This document shows, piece by piece, positions 7,809-20,141 of a DNA stretch of 64,000 nt. Position 1 is the stretch's first letter, and each line of letters starts with the position of its first letter. The position numbers were made by a program, and so were the translations under genes. Source of the stretch: Anaerolineaceae bacterium (GTDB lineage Bacteria; Chloroflexota; Anaerolineae; Anaerolineales; Anaerolineaceae); assembly GCA_016927865.1 (NCBI GenBank), contig JAFGLU010000132.1, positions 1-64,000 of the forward strand. The letters run 5' to 3'. The notes below the pieces were generated by a model that worked only from the letters and a program-made list of their open reading frames with translations, searched no databases and had not been told where the DNA came from.

Positions 7809-9200
7809 ATGCCCCACACTAAAATTACCGTCATCGGCGCAGGCAGCGCCAGTTTCGGTCTGAATACCATCGGCTCTTTGATGAAAAGCAAAAAGCTCCG
7901 CGGCAGCCACATCGCCCTGGTGGACCGCAACCCCGAAGCCCTGGGACTGATGCACCGCCTGGCCCAACGCCTCAACCGCGACTGGGACGCGCAGATGACC
8001 CTCACCGCGCACACCCATCACACCGAAGCCCTCCCCGGCACATCCTTTGTTGTCGCCGCCATCGAGGTGCCCCCGCGCGAAGAACTCTGGCGCATAGATT
8101 ACGAAATCCCCCTCAAATACGGCGTGCGCCAGCCCTATGCCGAAAACGGCGGCCCCGGCGGCTTCGCCCACGCCGCCCGTAACATCGGCCCGGTGCTCGA
8201 GATTGCCCACGACATGGAAGCTCTCTGCCCCGAAGCCTACTACATCAACTTCACCAACCCCATGGTGCGCATCTGCGACGCGATCAACCGCTACAGCAAA
8301 ATCAAGGTCATCGGCCTGTGCCACCAGATCTACGAGGGTTATGCCATGGCCGGGTACATCCTGGCCGACAAGCTCGGCATCCAGCGCCCCGAAGGCTTTG
8401 TCAGCACCCACGCCGACCGCGCCTACTGGGGCAAGATCTTTCAGCTCATCCACGCCACCGTGCCCCTCGTCGACATCAAAGCCGCCGGCCTCAACCACTT
8501 CACCTGGATTATGGACATCCGCGACCGCCGCACCGGCGAAGACCTCTACCCCGCGCTCCGCGAGGGCTGGGACAAAGCCCCCGATTGGTTCGAGCCGCTC
8601 ACCCGCCGCGTCTATGACGCCTTCGGCTGGATGCCCGTTCCCGGCGACGAGCACCTCGACGAGTACCTGCCCTGGTGCAGCGACCCGCTCACCAAACCCT
8701 GGGAAAAGTACGATCTCAGCCTCTACGATTGGGATGCCAATGCCGCCCACCGTAAGGAAGGCCATCAAGAAATTGCCTTGATGGGCGAAGGCCAGAAGAG
8801 CATCGATCACCTCAAGGATGCCGACAGCGAAGGCGCCCTGGAAGTCATCGAAGCCGTCTCCGGCGCGGGCAACGACTACCACCTTGCCGTCAATCTGCCC
8901 AACACCGGTCAGATCAGCAATTTGCCATTAAACACCATCGTCGAGACCCCCGCCGTGCTTTCAGGCATGGGCCCTCGCCCTGTCTCGATGGGCGCCCTGC
9001 CCGAAGGCGTGGCGGAACTCTTGCGTCGCGAAGCCGCCGTGGTCAAGCTGTGCGTCGATGCCGCCGTGAGCGGGGATCGCGCTTTAGCCTTGCAAGCCCT
9101 GCTTCTCGACCCCGTCATCACCGACCTGGACGTAGCTCGCCAGGTGCTGGACGACTACCTCACCACCTACCGCGAGCACCTGCCCCAGTTCTGGCGCTAG
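7809..9200 (+). CDS. GH4 glycosidase (alpha-glucosidase/galacturonidase type)
   Basis: A 463-aa NAD- and Mn-dependent glycosidase of family 4, which works by oxidation at C3 and elimination. The Rossmann motif VIGAGSASFGLNTIGS opens the protein. The Cys/His metal site is in GLCHQIY (about residue 175) and the second His in GLNHFTWI. NFTNPMVRIC is also typical. The start at 7809 follows TTGAGGAA and puts the Rossmann motif near residue 6; the frame is open 11 codons further upstream. Its stop overlaps that of galactokinase in a shared CTAG. The unusual mechanism tolerates uronic or unsaturated sugars, which fits the neighbouring uronide operon. Confidence 0.9.
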   Translation: MPHTKITVIGAGSASFGLNTIGSLMKSKKLRGSHIALVDRNPEALGLMHRLAQRLNRDWDAQMTLTAHTHHTEALPGTSFVVAAIEVPPREELWRIDYEIPLKYGVRQPYAENGGPGGFAHAARNIGPVLEIAHDMEALCPEAYYINFTNPMVRICDAINRYSKIKVIGLCHQIYEGYAMAGYILADKLGIQRPEGFVSTHADRAYWGKIFQLIHATVPLVDIKAAGLNHFTWIMDIRDRRTGEDLYPALREGWDKAPDWFEPLTRRVYDAFGWMPVPGDEHLDEYLPWCSDPLTKPWEKYDLSLYDWDANAAHRKEGHQEIALMGEGQKSIDHLKDADSEGALEVIEAVSGAGNDYHLAVNLPNTGQISNLPLNTIVETPAVLSGMGPRPVSMGALPEGVAELLRREAAVVKLCVDAAVSGDRALALQALLLDPVITDLDVARQVLDDYLTTYREHLPQFWR

Positions 9201-10498
9201 ACTCCGAAGTCCACCTTCACCGCGCCCGCCGAACGGATGGAGATCGGGTAACAGGCTCCCTGCCCAAACACCGCCTCCATCTTTTCAACGTAGGCCGCCA
9301 CCTGCTCCTGCGGCACAAACACCTGGATCGTCCCGGCGAACCCGCCCCCATGCACCCGCCACGCCCCGCTCTTGCCCAGCAGGTCGGCGGTCAACGTCTG
9401 CGCCAAAGCCACGCCCTGCTCCAGCGGTTTGCGCGGCGAGTAACAATTCTGCAGTTGCATCCACGAGCTGCGCCCCGATTCGACCACCAGTTCCAAAAAA
9501 CGTCCAAACTGACCGCTTTCCAGCGCCGCCACCTGCTCCGCCACGCGCGCATCATCATCATAAAAGTGAAAAGCCCGCATCAGCGCCCGGTCGCTTACTT
9601 TGCCGTGCAGCTCAGCCAGCCGCGCCAGCAGTTCCTGCCGCGAAAAATCGCGCAGCACGCGCCCGCCCATCGCCTCCGCCACCGAGCGCATCTCCTGCGC
9701 CACCCCGGCATAATCCTCGGTCAGGTCGGCGTGGTCGCCTCCCGTCTCCACAATCACCAGCGCATACCCCGACTGGCGAAAGTCATACTTGACCTTGTTC
9801 ACCACCGGCTTTGCCGGGTCCTTGAAATCGATCGTCACAAAACCGCCCACCGCCGAAGTGGTCTGATCCATCAAGCCGCTCGGCTTGCCAAAATAAACGT
9901 TCTCCGCGTACTGGCCAATTTGCGCCGCGCTCACCGGGTCGATCCGCCCCTGGTTGTACAGGTGACTGAGAATCGTCACCAGCATTACCTCGTAAGCCGC
10001 CGACGAGCTCAAACCCGAGCCTTTGGGCACCGCGCTGGTCATGCAGGCATTGAATCCGCCAATCTCATAACCCAGCGTTTTCAACCGGGCGCACACCCCG
10101 CGAATCAACGCCGCCGAGGTGTTTTTCTCCGCTTCCACCGCCTCCAGGTTGTTCAGGTTCACCGTTACCTGGGGATAGCCCTCCGAGTCCACGCGAATCA
10201 CGCCGTGATGTGCCGGTCCCGCCACGGCGATCAAATCTAAATCCACCGCCGCCGCCAGCACCCGCCCCGCGTTGTGGTCAGTGTGGTTGCCTCCCACCTC
10301 GGTGCGCCCCGGCGCGCTAAAAAAGGCCGCATCCAACGTGTCGGGGAACACGGACTGGAACCGGCCCAGCAAGTCTTGATAGCGCTGCTTTTGCAGCGAC
10401 AGTGTCCCTGGCTGATCTCCATATAAATCAATCAGCGCGCGCTCTCCAACAGCAGACTCAATCGCTTGCAAAAGGGGCTCAAGATTAGGCATCATCAA
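9197..10498 (-). CDS. galK: Galactokinase
   Basis: A 433-aa GHMP kinase that phosphorylates galactose at C1 using ATP, the entry step of the Leloir pathway. The galactokinase signature is GRTEVGGNHTDHNAG near residue 65; the ATP-binding motif is PKGSGLSSSAAYE, and motif 3 is RVHGGGFAGTIQVF at the C-terminus. LMDQTTSAVGGFV supplies the catalytic Asp region. The gene converges on GH4 with overlapping stop codons and is divergent from the HAD phosphatase. No galT or galE is in the window, so galactose use must be completed elsewhere, or the kinase acts on a related sugar. Confidence 0.92.
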   Translation of the reverse strand: MMMPNLEPLLQAIESAVGERALIDLYGDQPGTLSLQKQRYQDLLGRFQSVFPDTLDAAFFSAPGRTEVGGNHTDHNAGRVLAAAVDLDLIAVAGPAHHGVIRVDSEGYPQVTVNLNNLEAVEAEKNTSAALIRGVCARLKTLGYEIGGFNACMTSAVPKGSGLSSSAAYEVMLVTILSHLYNQGRIDPVSAAQIGQYAENVYFGKPSGLMDQTTSAVGGFVTIDFKDPAKPVVNKVKYDFRQSGYALVIVETGGDHADLTEDYAGVAQEMRSVAEAMGGRVLRDFSRQELLARLAELHGKVSDRALMRAFHFYDDDARVAEQVAALESGQFGRFLELVVESGRSSWMQLQNCYSPRKPLEQGVALAQTLTADLLGKSGAWRVHGGGFAGTIQVFVPQEQVAAYVEKMEAVFGQGACYPISIRSAGAVKVDFGV

Positions 10499-11402: not shown

Positions 11403-11879
11403 CTACGGCCCCGTCACCGTCTCGTACCCGGCAGCGCTCCACTGGATGATTCCACCCGACATGCTGGTCACATTTTCAAACCCGGCCGCCTTGAGAATAT
11501 CACGACCCTCCTGGCTGCGATTCCCCGAGCGGCACATCACCACCACCGTCTGGTCGCGCGGCACTTCGTTCACCCGGCTGGCAAGCTCGCCCAACGGAAT
11601 CAACGTCGCCCCAGGCACGTGCAGTTGGTTCCACTCATCCACCTCGCGCACATCCAGAACAAACGCGCCGCTGTCCCGCAGCTCGGCGGCCTGGGCTACC
11701 GATATCTGAGAGGCCAGCCCAGTTTCTTCAGGCTTCAGCAGCGTAAATGCGGCCACGGCGATCGCGGCAATCACTAACAACGGCACCAGCCACTTCCAGG
11801 GCACAGAGCGTCCTTGCTGATTGGCAGCCTTCTTCACAACTTTTGTAGATTTCACGGGTTTCGAGGTTTTCTTAGACAT
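11403..11879 (-). CDS. Membrane-anchored single rhodanese-domain protein
   Basis: A 158-aa protein with a Lys-rich N-terminus (residues 1-25), one membrane segment (VPWKWLVPLLVIAAIAVAAF, about 26-47) and a C-terminal rhodanese domain. The active-site loop is VVMCRSGNRS with the catalytic Cys, and the CH2A-like LDVREVDEW is present. It probably faces the outside and handles sulfur or acts as a thiol-binding module. It stands between two palindromic or unrelated units with no obvious partner. The four-rhodanese lipoprotein at 20280-21995 is a distant relative in the same window. Confidence 0.85.
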   Translation of the reverse strand: MSKKTSKPVKSTKVVKKAANQQGRSVPWKWLVPLLVIAAIAVAAFTLLKPEETGLASQISVAQAAELRDSGAFVLDVREVDEWNQLHVPGATLIPLGELASRVNEVPRDQTVVVMCRSGNRSQEGRDILKAAGFENVTSMSGGIIQWSAAGYETVTGP

Positions 11880-12915: not shown

Positions 12916-15153
12916 TCACCAAAATAACCGTTCCTGCTTTGGCCCTACCCCCTCCCAACCAAACGGCGCCAACACCGCCTCTGCCGCTCGCAGCAGCAGC
13001 TTGCGGTACTGCCATGTATCCACCTGCCCTCCGGTAGGTGAGCTGCCCGCATCCCAGGCGCGCACGCCCGGCTCCCCGCGCGTGTAAACAAAGCGCACCG
13101 ACTGGCCCGGGCGCAACACCTTGCCCTGCGCCAGCATCAAACGCGCCGCCCGCGCCGCCGGAGACGGGCTGTGGTAAGCCTCCACTGCCCGGCTCAAGCG
13201 ATGCGTCACCACCAGGTCCTCCGCCGCCACATGCCCCCCGCTCAACTCTGCCAGCCGCCGCCTCACCAGCCGGTCGGCCTCCGGCAGCGCCTCGTGCGGG
13301 TCGTCCGGCTTTGCCAGCAGTTCCAGCAGGCTCATCTGCATTCCACCCACCCAAGGCGGTGTGTCGTGCCGCCGGGCCTCAATCCCTCGCGCCTTGATCG
13401 TCCCGTCCCGAAACACCCCAAAATAGCGGTTTGCCACCGCCCGGTTGGGATACATACGCGAGGATAGGAACACCACCCAACGGTACACCCCCTCCAGTGC
13501 TACCGGCAGTCCCGTTCGCACCTCGATCTCCGCCAGCAGCTCGCCGAACTGTTCCTCCGCGCAAAAACCGTCCTGCTTCAGCCACAGCCCGTCCACATAG
13601 AGATGCAGCACCTCAAAACCCGCATCCTCGGCGGCTTCCTTAGCCCGCAGCAAAATGTCCCGCCCGAAAGCCGTCACCGCCTGGTGAGCTTCCATGCGCC
13701 CAAAACGCGCATTTTTATACCCCAAATAGCCAAAGCAGGTCACCAGCAGCCACTTCAGCGCCGAGGCGCGCTGCTTGTCGCTCTTGCGGCGCGGGTCCCA
13801 GGCCGGCAATCGTGCCAGTCGCTGCTTCAACGCCACGCGCTTCTGCAGCAGCGGGGCCAGCGCCCGCGGCACAATCCCCTTGCCCCCCACCTGAATGGCC
13901 ACCTCCAGTCCCGGCACGGTCTCGGCCCCCGGGCGCGGCGGTCCCAGGGTCTCTGGAGAAATATTGAAATGCACCATGATGGCCGGGTACAGCGACACAA
14001 AATCCACCCCCGCCACGTTGTAATGCAGCCCCGCCAGCGGCTGATACACCAGCCCGCCCTGATCCGCCTGGAAGGTCCCCGCCGCGCTGTGATACCCTTC
14101 CACCTGCTGCTTCTGCCACGGCACCAGCACCCCATCGCGCAGCGCGGTCAGCATTTGAATCGCCGAGATGCCCGTCCCCGGCGAGACCCGTGCCGCCTCC
14201 TGCACGGGCAGCCCCGTCACGCGCGCCGATTCCAGCACACCCGTCAGGCCGTAATCCTCCCACAGCATGGCATTCTTGCGGTCGATATGCCAGCGCCCAA
14301 ACAAAAACACCTGCGCCCCGCGGTACACAATCCGTCCATAGGAAAAATAGCTGCGCGCCGGTCGGTGTGCCGAAGCCCGGTCCTCGCGGCTGAGCGGCAG
14401 CGGCAGCCCGTGCGCCCGGCTCAGTTCATCCAGCTTGGGTAACAGCCAGGTGTCCCCCCAATCGGTCAAAATCAAGTCGGGGTCCCAGCGCAGCAAAATA
14501 GCCCGCAAGTTCACCAGCAGTGCTCGCGGCGGGTCAAAGCTCAGCGCGCATTCCCGCCGTTCATAGCGCGCAATCACCCGCCGGGGTTCGGCGTGCCCGG
14601 GGTCGCAATCCGGCGTCAACTCCAGCACCCGCAGCGGCGGCTCATCCGGATCCAGCTCCCAGGCCGTCGACAACCCCTCCATCCGCGTCACTCTTCCACC
14701 CGGCCCCACCTGCGCCCGGCAGCGCAGCAGCGGCCCCACCCCGGTCGCTGCCGCGTAGCGCAAACTCAGCGGTACATCCGCATTGGCATATTGCAAATCG
14801 GGGAAGGTGCATAAAGCCTGCTGAAACAGCCCCGGCAGGCTGGCGTGCCGCTCTACTTGCGCCTCCAGCACCGGCACCGGGCAGCCTGGCAGCAGCGCCT
14901 GGACCGTTCCCTCGCTTTGCGCAAAGGCATCCACCCGCTCGCAGCGCCGTAAATAGGGTGCCTCCTCTCGCCCCGCCAGAAATCGCCACAAATCCCGCAG
15001 GCGCTCTGTGGGCCCTTCGGCGCAGAACCCCACCGGAAAAGGCTGCGTCAGCCGCCGCCGCGCGCCGTCATCTCCCAACAGCCAAAGCGCCACCCCCTCG
15101 CGGGAATCCTCGTATAGGTCCAGCAGCCAGCCGCTTAGTTCCATAGTCGTCAC
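12916..15153 (-). CDS. Inactivated family B DNA polymerase (archaeal PolB2-like)
   Basis: A 745-aa PolB homologue that keeps the fold but not the full active sites. Motif A is intact (DFVSLYPAIM, about residue 383). In motif B the usual NSxYG is VTCFGYLG (about 470). In motif C, YGDTD is replaced by YVDGLW (about 516), so the second catalytic Asp is missing. The exonuclease motif DIE is replaced by LELT, though an exo-II-like LTDWGDTWLLPKL remains. This matches a described family of inactivated archaeal B polymerases with a few bacterial members. The start is GTG at 15153; before a MITE insertion it overlapped the upstream small gene (GTGA). The role is probably structural in DNA repair or translesion synthesis with its two upstream partners. 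Confidence 0.85.
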   Translation of the reverse strand: MTTMELSGWLLDLYEDSREGVALWLLGDDGARRRLTQPFPVGFCAEGPTERLRDLWRFLAGREEAPYLRRCERVDAFAQSEGTVQALLPGCPVPVLEAQVERHASLPGLFQQALCTFPDLQYANADVPLSLRYAAATGVGPLLRCRAQVGPGGRVTRMEGLSTAWELDPDEPPLRVLELTPDCDPGHAEPRRVIARYERRECALSFDPPRALLVNLRAILLRWDPDLILTDWGDTWLLPKLDELSRAHGLPLPLSREDRASAHRPARSYFSYGRIVYRGAQVFLFGRWHIDRKNAMLWEDYGLTGVLESARVTGLPVQEAARVSPGTGISAIQMLTALRDGVLVPWQKQQVEGYHSAAGTFQADQGGLVYQPLAGLHYNVAGVDFVSLYPAIMVHFNISPETLGPPRPGAETVPGLEVAIQVGGKGIVPRALAPLLQKRVALKQRLARLPAWDPRRKSDKQRASALKWLLVTCFGYLGYKNARFGRMEAHQAVTAFGRDILLRAKEAAEDAGFEVLHLYVDGLWLKQDGFCAEEQFGELLAEIEVRTGLPVALEGVYRWVVFLSSRMYPNRAVANRYFGVFRDGTIKARGIEARRHDTPPWVGGMQMSLLELLAKPDDPHEALPEADRLVRRRLAELSGGHVAAEDLVVTHRLSRAVEAYHSPSPAARAARLMLAQGKVLRPGQSVRFVYTRGEPGVRAWDAGSSPTGGQVDTWQYRKLLLRAAEAVLAPFGWEGVGPKQERLFW

Positions 15154-15197
15154 TCACGCCAAAAGCAAAAAAGCCCTTTCCCAACCTCGGTGAGTAG

Positions 15198-15465
15198 TTT
15201 GACAATGTCGCTTTAAAATTTCGGGCTCGTGACCCCACCCCCACCCCTCCCCGCTGGCAAAAAAACCGCAAAACATAGGCTCAAGGGCGGGGAGGGGAGA
15301 AGATTCTGCAAAAGTGAGGGGCTGAAAGCCCCTCACTTTTGCAGAATTCTTTCCCTCCCCCGGCAAAACACTTAAGTAATTAAGCGTCTTGGTTGCCGGG
15401 GGAGGGTAGGGTGGGGGCAACACCCGAGTTCGAAGGTCATGGCGTTATAAAGTGACATTGTCAAG
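15198..15465. mobile_element. 268-bp MITE related to the nearby IS701-family element
   Basis: The ends TTTGACAATGTCGCTTTA (15198) and TAAAGTGACATTGTCAAG (to 15465) are inverted copies of the IS701-family ends at 16601 and 18116, with one change each. A 4-bp target duplication GTAG flanks it (15194-15197 and 15466-15469). It has no gene; the inside is a set of GC-rich hairpins. It lies between the small gene and the PolB gene and supplies the stop codon of the small gene. Confidence 0.88.
15236..15412. repeat. GC-rich composite hairpin (family P2, copy 1) inside the MITE
   Basis: The centre is a perfect 21-bp stem (15303-15323 with 15327-15347) around GAA. It is flanked by C-rich/G-rich hairpins (about 15246-15295 and 15353-15412) that together form a cloverleaf-like inverted structure. 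The same plan recurs at 16449-16548 and 57243-57343. Confidence 0.75.
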
Positions 15466-15748
15466 GTAGATACGTTCCATCTCGCCCCGGCGGCAAACGA
15501 TCTACACGCTCCACCGCGCTACGCAGCCGTTCGATCTCCTTCTGCTGTTCCAGCAAAATAGACAGCAGAAACAGCTCAAAAGGCAGCGCGTGCCCCGCGT
15601 AAGAGACCGCCGCCAGGTGCCGCTGGGCCGCATCCAGCAGCGCATCCAGAGCCACCTGATCGCTGCGCCGCAAGGCCCGCCGAAAGCGTCCCAAGGCCTC
15701 GCTTTCCTCCATGAAATACTGCGTGATGGAAGGCAGCGTGCGGCCCAT
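15461..15748 (-). CDS. Small helical protein of the PolB operon, truncated by the MITE
   Basis: A 95-aa, mostly helical, unknown protein (YFMEESEALGRFRRALRR, then an amphipathic helix with LLEQQKEIERLRSAVE). Its ATG overlaps the stop of the RecA-like gene (TAATG), so the two are coupled. The current stop TGA is inside the MITE end. Removing the MITE and one GTAG copy continues the frame for 14 codons (LTEVGKGLFCFWRE) to a TGA that overlaps the PolB GTG. The original product was therefore probably 108 aa. The loss changes only the C-terminal end, so the protein may still work. No function is recognised. Confidence 0.7.
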   Translation of the reverse strand: MGRTLPSITQYFMEESEALGRFRRALRRSDQVALDALLDAAQRHLAAVSYAGHALPFELFLLSILLEQQKEIERLRSAVERVDRLPPGRDGTYLP

Positions 15749-16284
15749 TAGAACAGCTCCAACTGGCGAACATCCGGCGGCGGAGCGCTCCAGGCCCAAT
15801 TCACGTCCGCGGCAGCCTGCAAGCGCGCCAGCAACGGCTCCCACAGGTCTGCCAGGCCTGTGTGTTGCGCCGCCCACACCAGCACAGGTTGGCGAGTCGC
15901 CATGCGCCGCAGCCCCTCCAGGCAGGCCCCAAACAGTCGCATCCGCTCGCCCACCGGCACGGCCTCGTCGGCAAAGGTGGCCAAAAAATCCAGCACCAAC
16001 ACCGGCTGCTCCGGCGGCTCGGGCACGCACACCAGCGCCTGCATCTGGAAGCAGGTGAAGGCCCGCGCCAGCGTCACCCGCCGCAGGGCCGGGTAGGGCG
16101 AGCCGCCCAGCCGCCGCAGCGCCGCCGCCACCGGGTAGGTGTTGAAGGTGTTGCCCCCATCCATCACCCGCAGCGCGCCGCGAGACGCCAGCCGTGCCGC
16201 CAGCTCGTACAGGGCCGGGAGAATGGCCCGCGGCCCATTTACCAAATAAAGACGATTTTGAGAAAGAACCAGTGAATCATTCAT
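15748..16284 (-). CDS. RecA-superfamily-like protein without a P-loop
   Basis: A 178-aa protein with a RecA/RadA core layout. The place of Walker A holds NGPRAILPALY without a GKT. Then RVMDGGNTFNTYPVAAALRRLG resembles the RadA IDTExxF strand and helix. A Walker-B-like strand (VLVLDFLATF) and a VLVWAAQHT strand follow. It probably cannot bind ATP in the usual way. The start at 16284 follows a GGGGG stretch and gives a compact domain; the frame is open to 16410. It is the first gene of a three-gene operon with the small helical protein and the inactivated PolB. A mediator role on DNA, as for ImuA-like proteins, is inference. Confidence 0.7.
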   Translation of the reverse strand: MNDSLVLSQNRLYLVNGPRAILPALYELAARLASRGALRVMDGGNTFNTYPVAAALRRLGGSPYPALRRVTLARAFTCFQMQALVCVPEPPEQPVLVLDFLATFADEAVPVGERMRLFGACLEGLRRMATRQPVLVWAAQHTGLADLWEPLLARLQAAADVNWAWSAPPPDVRQLELF

Positions 16285-16600
16285 ACCCCCAGGATACGCT
16301 CGCCCGCCCGCCCGCGCCATCCCCCACACATGGGAAGCGCAGGGGAAGACCGGGGTACCCCCCAGGGGGGATAAGCGTCTCTGCTCCTTCTCCCTTCTCA
16401 TCATCCACACACGCTCAAACCCGCCCCGGGCGCGGGGAGCAAGACGTCAGAAGAGTGAGGGGCTTTCGCCCCTCACTCTTCTAAATTTCTTTCCCTCCCC
16501 CAGCCAAAACCACAGAATTCACCCAGTTCCCGATTGGCTGGGGGAGGGATAAAGGGAGGGGGTTGATAGCGCGCCCTTGGGTAAGAAAAAACGTAAATAC
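16285..16600. other. Intergenic region upstream of the PolB operon
   Basis: Just over 300 bp between the RecA-like start and the left end of the IS. It holds the operon's presumed promoter, which I cannot pinpoint, and a P2-family hairpin element. The IS insertion may have separated or replaced upstream regulation. Confidence 0.4.
16449..16548. repeat. GC-rich composite hairpin (family P2, copy 2)
   Basis: A 15-bp perfect stem (16449-16463 with 16468-16482) is followed by a second one, CCCTCCCCCAGCCAA (16493-16507) with 16534-16548. The order and the linking TTTCTTTCCCTCCCC match the copy inside the MITE. Confidence 0.75.
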
Positions 16601-18166: not shown

Positions 18167-18571
18167 CTACTCCCAGGCGCTAAAATCCAACCCATCCAGC
18201 GCCTGGCGCAATTCCTCCTTGCTGTGCAGTCCCAACTTTCGCAGCAGACTGCGCAGGTGGCTCTTCACCGTCTCCGGCGAGACACCCAACCGTGCGGCAA
18301 TTTGCCGGTTGGTATACCCCAAACAAGTCAGCGCCGCCACCTCTTGCTCCCGCGCTGTGATCATCTGCCAGGCCGCCAACTGCGCCTCGGCCTGCTGCCG
18401 GTCGAACAACGCCCCGCGCAGCAGTACCTCCGCCATCTCCTCCGGCGTCAAATTCTGCTGATCAGCCATGAATCGAAGCATTTCCTGAGCAGGCTCGTCC
18501 AATTCAAAACGAATAACCTGCGAGTCTGATAAAAAGCCCAGGCGATAAAGCAGGCGCAGCCAAAAGTTCAT
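18167..18571 (-). CDS. LuxR-type HTH transcriptional regulator, no receiver
   Basis: A 134-aa protein. The C-terminal 65 residues are a LuxR helix-turn-helix (ITAREQEVAALTCLGYTNRQ, then VSPETVKSHLRSLLRKL). The N-terminal half is helical and has no response-regulator Asp or PAS motif, so the input is unknown. It stands alone between the IS and a P1 palindrome, with a weak ribosome binding site. It could control the LarA gene upstream or respond to an unseen partner; nothing in the sequence decides. Confidence 0.85.
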   Translation of the reverse strand: MNFWLRLLYRLGFLSDSQVIRFELDEPAQEMLRFMADQQNLTPEEMAEVLLRGALFDRQQAEAQLAAWQMITAREQEVAALTCLGYTNRQIAARLGVSPETVKSHLRSLLRKLGLHSKEELRQALDGLDFSAWE

Positions 18572-18608
18572 GGTTAATCCGGCACGCAGGCAGTGCCAAT
18601 TTCAATAT

Positions 18609-18803
18609 GCAACTACTCTCGGTAGGGGTGAAAAACCCTGAATTTGAGGTGTTGATGGGGGCTTCGCCCCCATCAACACCTCAAATTCAGGAACTTCCCC
18701 AATCCCGATGAGTATATACTTCAGTATAATAGATATTATGTTCTACAACAAGGTAAAAAAACGCCTCAAATTCGGGCATTTTTACCTCTTCATGAGTAGT
18801 TAC
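18609..18803. repeat. P1-family palindrome, copy 2, with terminal arms
   Basis: The core 18637-18662 pairs perfectly with 18666-18691 (26 bp, TTC loop). Outer arms GCAACTACTC (18609) and GAGTAGTTAC (to 18803) are inverted copies of those at 41596 and 41707. A second partial arm, CCTCAAATTCGGG, is at 18764-18776 inside a stem AGGTAAAAA/TTTTTACCT. The right arm contains the stop codon of the LarA gene. Confidence 0.8.
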
Positions 18804-20077
18804 GACTGTTTTACATACGGAATAGTAACCGGCCCCTCAGGCAGCACACAAATACGCGTCTCCTGACCGTAGCGCTCCACCAGCATCGCCATCGTCCCCT
18901 CCACCGTCTCCGCCGGCAGCAGCATGGCCTGGCGGATTTGGTCAAAGCTCAAATGCGTGCTGTAAACGTATACTTCTGCCTTACGCAACACCTGTCCCAA
19001 CACCTGTGCCTGCCATTGATCCTGCCTGCAGAACCCCGGCTGTTGAATTTTCGCCAGCAGTTCCTCCACATTGCCTGCCTCAGCCAGCATCTGCCCGAAC
19101 AGCCCGTGCTCTGGAATACCGTCCCAGCACTCTGCTGCGATCACAATTGCGCCCCCCGCCTTGACCACCTGCCCCGCCGCGCTCATCCCTTTCACCGCCT
19201 GGTACAAATTCAAATCCAACGGGTAGCCAGAATTAGAGGTCAGCACGATATCAAAAGGCCGCTCGACGGGGATCATGGTCATCTTCCGCGCATATTCGCA
19301 GCCCGCCTCGTGCGCCTCATCCAGGTCCCCTGCGAACACCGCCGTGATCTGCTTCTCCCGGTTCAGCGTGACATTCACCAGGAATAAATCCCCCGCCATC
19401 CGTGCCGCTTCTTGCACCTCCTCCCACAGCGGGTTCCCCTTCGTAATTCCCCATGTTGCGCGTGGATCACCGATATTGGCCGCATCATGGTTACCCAACA
19501 CGGTCGTCTGCCCCGCCATCCCCGGCATCAGCGCTTTGCCCCCGCCCGAAAACCCGGCGAAGAAATGCGGCTCAATAAACCCGGTCAAGATCTTAACGTC
19601 ACATTCCATCAAATCCCGGTTTAGCCAAACCTCGTTCCCCCGCGAAGTCTTGCCAACGCACACCTGTGTGTCTCGGTCACATGCGTTATTCTGCACAATG
19701 CGATAACCATCCACCAGCGCGTCCCCCAACATTCGCCGCAGTTCAGCCTCGCTGTTTGAACGGTGCGTGCCCAGCGCATTGTATAGCGTGACCTGTCGCG
19801 TGGGCACGTGTGCCAATTCCGCCAGGATCGCTGAAATTATTACCTCATTGGGTGTGGCGCGGGTAATGTCATTGAACACAATCCCCACCCGGTCGCCCGC
19901 CCGAACCCGTTCGCGCAGCGGCGGGCTGCCAATCGGGTCGCGCAGCGCCTCGCGCAATTTTTTTGTCGGGTCGGTTGCGCCCGGAGCATACCTGGGTTCT
20001 ACGATCTCAATGGCCCACTCGTCCGGCAACTGCACTGTCAAACCGCTCTTCCCAAATGCCAGGTGTGTATTCATCAT
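18800..20077 (-). CDS. LarA-family nickel-dependent racemase-like protein
   Basis: A 425-aa member of the lactate racemase catalytic family (DUF2088). The conserved N-terminal NDITRATP, the His loop YNALGTHR, and EPHFFAGFSGGGKALMPGMAG with the Lys that carries the nickel-pincer cofactor are present. LarA enzymes racemise or epimerise 2-hydroxy acids. No larB, larC or larE is nearby, so the cofactor genes must be elsewhere. ATG codons at 20077 and 20074 are both possible. The stop TAA is within the P1 repeat arm. The substrate may be another hydroxy acid or a sugar acid. Confidence 0.88.
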   Translation of the reverse strand: MMNTHLAFGKSGLTVQLPDEWAIEIVEPRYAPGATDPTKKLREALRDPIGSPPLRERVRAGDRVGIVFNDITRATPNEVIISAILAELAHVPTRQVTLYNALGTHRSNSEAELRRMLGDALVDGYRIVQNNACDRDTQVCVGKTSRGNEVWLNRDLMECDVKILTGFIEPHFFAGFSGGGKALMPGMAGQTTVLGNHDAANIGDPRATWGITKGNPLWEEVQEAARMAGDLFLVNVTLNREKQITAVFAGDLDEAHEAGCEYARKMTMIPVERPFDIVLTSNSGYPLDLNLYQAVKGMSAAGQVVKAGGAIVIAAECWDGIPEHGLFGQMLAEAGNVEELLAKIQQPGFCRQDQWQAQVLGQVLRKAEVYVYSTHLSFDQIRQAMLLPAETVEGTMAMLVERYGQETRICVLPEGPVTIPYVKQS

Positions 20078-20141
20078 TTCGCCTGCCTGTTTCCTCAAAA
20101 AACACTTTCTAATTCATTATACGAAAATAGGCACTCTAGCT

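Follow-up and report, generated by a model that had tools for sequence, protein, structure and literature searches.

The stretch of DNA analysed here, 64,000 nucleotides of contig JAFGLU010000132.1 from an Anaerolineaceae bacterium (hereafter the window), contains three uninterrupted reading frames on the same strand (16284-12916, minus) that encode, in this order, a RadA-like protein (iRadA), a small helical protein (PPB2) and a B-family DNA polymerase (PolB2). We read this locus, with a probability of about 0.82, as a bacterial PolB2 mutasome that has a competent, proofreading-free translesion polymerase and lies within the LexA regulon of the Anaerolineae; the core of this mutasome is already known (PMC11791011). 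A three-gene operon had been proposed in the original prediction, made from the sequence alone, and the three genes are indeed intact, but its bounds omit a fourth conserved gene upstream (18571-18167), coding for a helix-turn-helix (HTH) protein, and two mobile-element insertions. The principal features are as follows.

12916..15153, minus strand: PolB2 polymerase, 745 aa from the GTG at 15153 or 742 aa from the ATG at 15144
13591..13599, minus strand: PolB2 motif C, Y519-V520-D521, with the first Asp of DxD changed to Tyr and the second retained
15461..15748, minus strand: PPB2, a small helical protein of 95 aa with the N-terminus MGRT
15748..16284, minus strand: iRadA, 178 aa, a Rad51/RadA-like core with no Walker A and a C-terminal beta-clamp motif, QLELF
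15751..15765, minus strand: the beta-clamp motif QLELF at the iRadA C-terminus, identified by motif enrichment in relatives
18167..18571 (stop codon included), minus strand: LuxR/GerE-type HTH protein, 134 aa, the conserved first operon gene in Anaerolineae
18731..18744, minus strand: degenerate LexA box AGAACATAATATCT, two mismatches from AGAACNNNNGTTCT; the promoter that contains it is homologous to its counterparts in relatives

The iRadA stop codon overlaps the PPB2 start (TAATG), and the ATG at 15144 is the likelier start of PolB2, as it fits the relatives better than the GTG at 15153. The genome is a draft of 147 contigs with ~85% completeness, in which PolB2 is the sole B-family polymerase found; a single Y-family gene is present elsewhere, outside the operon.

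PolB2 matches the Pfam family DNA_pol_B (1.6e-26), and its best NCBIfam match is the 'type B DNA-directed DNA polymerase' model (1e-108, under the curated cut-off). A structure search with its predicted model (predicted local distance difference test, pLDDT, 88.6) recovers archaeal PolB structures (E=3.5e-39). Alignment to the PolB of P. abyssi places GFKVLYIDTDGLYA opposite GFEVLHLYVDGLWL, such that the D-T-D of motif C corresponds to Y-V-D in the window; it is the first Asp that is lost and the second that is kept, the reverse of what had been predicted. In an alignment-based census of 83 PolB2 proteins the motif A Asp (D384), the motif B Lys (K467) and the second motif C Asp (D521) are each present in all 83, as is D364, which belongs to the D(K/R) motif preceding the palm; the residue after it is variable (Q in the window). 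R439 is invariant too, and position 519 is Tyr in 80 proteins and Phe in three. Two other features were seen correctly at the outset: motif B is altered (KWLLVTCFG versus KILANSYYG), though its Lys and Gly remain, and the DIE exonuclease motif is missing, the Exo I region reading LRVLELTPD. With Exo II (YNGDNF..) standing opposite DWGDTWLL, the exonuclease site is lost.

The archaeal PolB2 proteins, with which the window's polymerase belongs, are active, damage-induced and needed for targeted, damage-induced mutagenesis (PMC7390963, PMC8764526), and that of S. islandicus, in which the first motif C Asp is Ile (IID), polymerises robustly and extends mismatches (PMC8764526). Because an archaeal PolB2 with the equivalent Asp loss is active and the remaining catalytic residues are invariant, the protein in the window is probably an active translesion extender, a better reading than a dead enzyme. 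It could instead be a scaffold with no polymerase activity, giving structural support alone to fork repair or to a different translesion polymerase, as might be suggested by the replacement of one of the two motif C Asp in all 83 relatives, the missing exonuclease site and a RadA partner devoid of an ATPase site. We consider this improbable: a dead enzyme would not be expected to keep every other catalytic position, the two carboxylates that are left and the motif B Lys among them, without a single change; the archaeal counterpart that has lost the same Asp is active (PMC8764526); and PolB2 has the lowest median ratio of nonsynonymous to synonymous substitution rates (dN/dS) of the three genes (0.09). 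An inactivated PolB was rejected given the alignment and the invariance of D384, K467, R439 and D521 in the 83 relatives, and the corrected reading of motif C removes the argument for it. Of the original view that both proteins had kept their fold and lost catalysis, and could form a non-catalytic scaffold for translesion synthesis or fork repair in Chloroflexota, there remain the RadA fold without its ATPase site, the kinship with archaeal PolB2 and translesion synthesis as the likeliest role; the inactivation and the scaffold are unlikely now that the missing residue, misassigned at first, has been corrected.

Neither iRadA nor PPB2 matches a Pfam or NCBIfam family at useful E-values, and a profile of 36 relatives was needed for iRadA. 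Searched against the PDB, this profile finds RadA chains (E=1.1e-7), and the AlphaFold2 model (pLDDT 92.7) has RadA/Rad51 as its top Foldseek matches (E=2e-8). The protein has no GKT/S at the P-loop position and lacks the N-terminal domain of RadA as well as its ATPase site, in agreement with the RecA-like core without Walker A that had been described. A strict C-terminal clamp motif of the QxxLF type occurs in 53 of 74 iRadA relatives, versus 1.5 expected from shuffled tails. PPB2 begins MGRTLPSITQ in the window; across relatives M1 and G2 are invariant and R3 is nearly so. A further sequence of clamp-motif type lies near the end of PolB2, which terminates in KQERLFW:

12922..12936, minus strand: QERLF, a possible second clamp motif near the PolB2 C-terminus

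In PolB2 tails strict motifs are no commoner than chance predicts (2 observed versus 2.1 expected), and the notion that two clamp motifs per complex are a specialty of the window was rejected, the PolB2 QERLF being indistinguishable from chance.

Conservation of the locus was examined in the best 80 of a larger number of named loci with PolB2 in the genome collection, whose titles are Chloroflexota, mostly Anaerolineae. At almost every locus whose upstream sequence is long enough, iRadA and PPB2 stand directly before PolB2, with the genes overlapping or nearly so. Among 41 related genomes PolB2 is present in 29, iRadA in 28 and PPB2 in 28; all three occur together in 28 and none in 12, and the one remaining genome (G009) contains part of PolB2, located at the edge of a contig. 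iRadA and PPB2 co-occur accordingly (Fisher p=6e-11). A search for co-occurrence had been suggested with the original prediction; it finds the three-gene neighbourhood conserved and the RecA-like and small helical partners to be real. Median dN/dS values in relatives are 0.13 for iRadA, 0.12 for PPB2 and 0.09 for PolB2, reflecting purifying selection, as had been supposed from the clean reading frames. PPB2 was found in 11 of 201 sampled genomes of the phylum, all of them in the window's class, Anaerolineae, and the operon is present in the cultured Levilinea saccharolytica and Ornatilinea apprima. Two loci, L157 (genome G029) and L158 (G031), contain a second iRadA copy with a linked HTH gene, that of G031 also with PPB2, and some genomes may thus carry two mutasome operons. 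PolB2 is also encoded on two contigs that IMG/VR classes as viral (L104 and L103, the latter with PPB2 as well), which could be pieces of host DNA or copies carried by phages.

A recurrent element at the head of these operons is the inverted repeat AGAAC-N4-GTTCT, whose form, GAAC-N4-GTTC, is familiar from the LexA boxes of Gram-positive bacteria (PMC3323433). Scored at no more than one mismatch and within 200 nucleotides of the operon head, with open reading frames in the same DNA as controls, the box is present in 59 of 70 Anaerolineae loci versus 12 of 478 controls, and coincides in part with the head gene's -35/-10 region. It precedes the HTH gene in 47 of the 50 loci where this is linked, and iRadA in 12 of the 20 where it is not; at L029 and L033, where polB2 stands alone, it lies directly before polB2. 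The lexA promoters of relatives contain the same box between TTGACA and the -10 (no more than one mismatch in 15 of 20 scored), and the genome from which the window comes has a version with two mismatches ahead of its lexA. No exact box is present in the window, the exact 14-mer occurs at just two places in the genome, and a promoter-consensus scan across the window's operon gave no match; the degenerate box at 18731..18744 is assigned as a LexA box because its promoter is homologous to those of the relatives. With the box at operon heads and the same box before lexA, the mutasome operon of Anaerolineae is most likely under LexA control, and an enrichment of lexA near bacterial PolB2 loci has been noted previously (PMC11791011).

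The HTH gene was recognised by clustering the open reading frames that neighbour the operon in relatives, and its product contains a GerE (LuxR-type) HTH domain (5e-16). It lies upstream of iRadA on the same strand in 50 of 73 related loci holding iRadA, usually at a spacing of ~65-170 nucleotides, and some of the iRadA loci without it are cut by contig ends. Strong matches (E<1e-30) are found in 18 of the 41 genomes, all PolB2-positive (G009 being fragmentary for both genes), and in none of the 12 PolB2-negative ones (Fisher p=3e-4). In three genomes the gene is unlinked from the operon but still has this box in its promoter. Its median dN/dS in relatives is 0.13, again indicating purifying selection. 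A weak RHH_1 match (E=0.02) in one of four members scanned invites the guess that the N-terminal part resembles a ribbon-helix-helix. The intergenic regions between the HTH gene and iRadA (33 dereplicated loci) have an excess of 4-mers, mostly CCC-rich, that recur at 11-12 nucleotides (z 6.9, 5.4) and at 21-24 nucleotides, and a remnant of these is present in the window.

16331..16357, minus strand: remnant of CCC-rich direct repeats, TACCCC..TCCCC..TCCC, ~11 nucleotides apart, found between HTH and iRadA in relatives

These repeats are candidate binding sites for the HTH protein; an alternative reading is low-complexity C-rich sequence. We put forward tentatively, and at rather less than even odds, that the HTH protein is a dedicated, LexA-controlled mutasome regulator acting on the repeats of ~11-12 nucleotide period (LexA to HTH to mutasome), or else a fourth working part. 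If so, a two-step SOS cascade in Anaerolineae would time or limit mutagenesis.

The copy in the window differs from those of its relatives in being interrupted between genes by two insertions.

15199..15464, minus strand: element resembling a miniature inverted-repeat transposable element (MITE), between PPB2 and PolB2, with the same ends (TTGACAATGTC/GACATTGTCAA) as the insertion sequence below; it provides the PPB2 stop codon
16602..18115, minus strand: insertion sequence between HTH and iRadA, with ends TTGACAATGTC/GACATTGTCAA and flanking direct repeats AGTATT

The insertion sequence encodes a DDE transposase (17972-16611), and probably mobilises the MITE, which has the same terminal repeats; 76 places across the genome match the MITE, a figure that includes partial matches and takes its inner palindrome on both strands. 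The gap between PPB2 and PolB2 is 308 nucleotides here, versus -31 to 48 in nearly all relatives. Dispersed hairpin repeats (e.g. TGAATTTGAGGTGTTGATGGGGGCGAAGCCCCCATCAACACCTCAAATTCA) occur at 18600-18720 and 16440-16560, the former between the promoter and the HTH start, and a similar one is present at locus L121. With none of the four frames broken, the proteins are probably produced, but their control may be altered or decaying. The operon could thus be one that works in relatives and decays here, having left the SOS response, with intact frames reflecting recent inactivation: a strong hairpin within the MITE separates PPB2 from PolB2, the insertion sequence and the hairpin repeat intervene between HTH and iRadA and between promoter and HTH respectively, and the LexA box has two mismatches. 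We regard such decay as unlikely, though less so than the scaffold, given the four intact frames and the preserved catalytic residues, MGRT arm and clamp motif; the repeat family is moreover common in this genome, so that intergenic insertions are no sign of decay by themselves. The neighbours on either side are apparently unrelated to the operon and encode a putative galactokinase-like protein (9197-10498), a putative rhodanese-like protein (11403-11879) and a LarA lactate racemase family protein (18800-20098).

Several observations count against a competent, LexA-controlled mutasome at this locus. The motif C Asp that is missing is a metal ligand in canonical PolB enzymes, and no demonstration of activity for a bacterial PolB2 was found in the literature searched. 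PolB2 lacks adjoining iRadA and PPB2 in the available sequence at three loci (L029, L033 and L050). In the window itself, the MITE and the insertion sequence may uncouple polB2 and the HTH gene from the remaining operon, and a box with two mismatches is not significant alone in 64 kb (11 found, 15.8 expected).

The closest known system is the bacterial PolB2 mutasome published by Timinskas, Timinskas and Venclovas in 2025 (group G2; PMC11791011), for which the complex has been modelled with 40 archaeal and bacterial protein sets. The window shares with it the three proteins, their gene order, the PPB2 MGRT arm, a RadA fold without its ATPase site, the missing first Asp of DxD, the lost exonuclease, and a clamp motif located mainly in iRadA. 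It differs in its mobile-element insertions and in a possible clamp motif in PolB2 as well as iRadA, the former at chance level. The main text of that study has neither a LexA box at the operon head nor a LuxR-type HTH gene, both of which are found here; these two features, and the operon's confinement to Anaerolineae in the sample of the phylum, were not found in the searchable literature, supplementary files being outside the search. The Dpo2 protein of S. islandicus (PMC7390963, PMC8764526) belongs to the same PolB2 family, has no proofreading and lacks the first Asp of motif C, which reads IID in Dpo2 and YVD in the window; it is experimentally active, whereas the PolB2 of the window is known here from its sequence. 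Archaeal PolB2 is also damage-inducible, but its regulation is tied to Orc1/Cdc6 homologues and not to LexA (PMC11791011), and the archaeal polB2-arCOG07300-radA operon (PMC4104785) is a related arrangement.

Pol V (UmuD'2C-RecA) and ImuA-ImuB-DnaE2 similarly combine a polymerase with a RecA-family protein and a small partner, bind the clamp and are under SOS control, but they employ Y- or C-family polymerases and other small subunits and are not homologous systems. The resemblance to ImuA/ImuB raised in the original prediction therefore holds for the shared logic and not for membership, which was rejected. It is highly implausible that the RecA-like gene is an ImuA and the operon a mutasome of the ImuA-ImuB-DnaE2 type: SOS control and the pairing of a polymerase with a RecA-family protein are common to both, but the operon has no Y-family ImuB and no C-family DnaE2, its polymerase is of the B family, and its RecA relative is closest to RadA/Rad51.

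In the mechanism that we propose, PolB2 would act as a catalytically competent B-family translesion polymerase without proofreading, most likely as an extender, and would form one complex, a putative PolB2-iRadA-PPB2(3) heteropentamer, with PPB2 (a predicted trimer with its MGRT arm) and the Rad51-like iRadA, which has no ATP-binding loop. The complex would be docked on the beta clamp at stalled forks through the motif carried by iRadA. Its production would be induced in the SOS response via the LexA box that overlaps the promoter of whichever gene heads the operon, usually that of the small LuxR-type HTH protein, a putative dedicated regulator. The bacterial PolB2 mutasome is known from sequence and models alone, and the box and the HTH gene predict when it is made, a prediction testable in a class with cultured members such as Levilinea saccharolytica and Ornatilinea apprima. 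Together they suggest a route by which a damage polymerase of archaea, after its transfer to bacteria, came under the bacterial SOS response.

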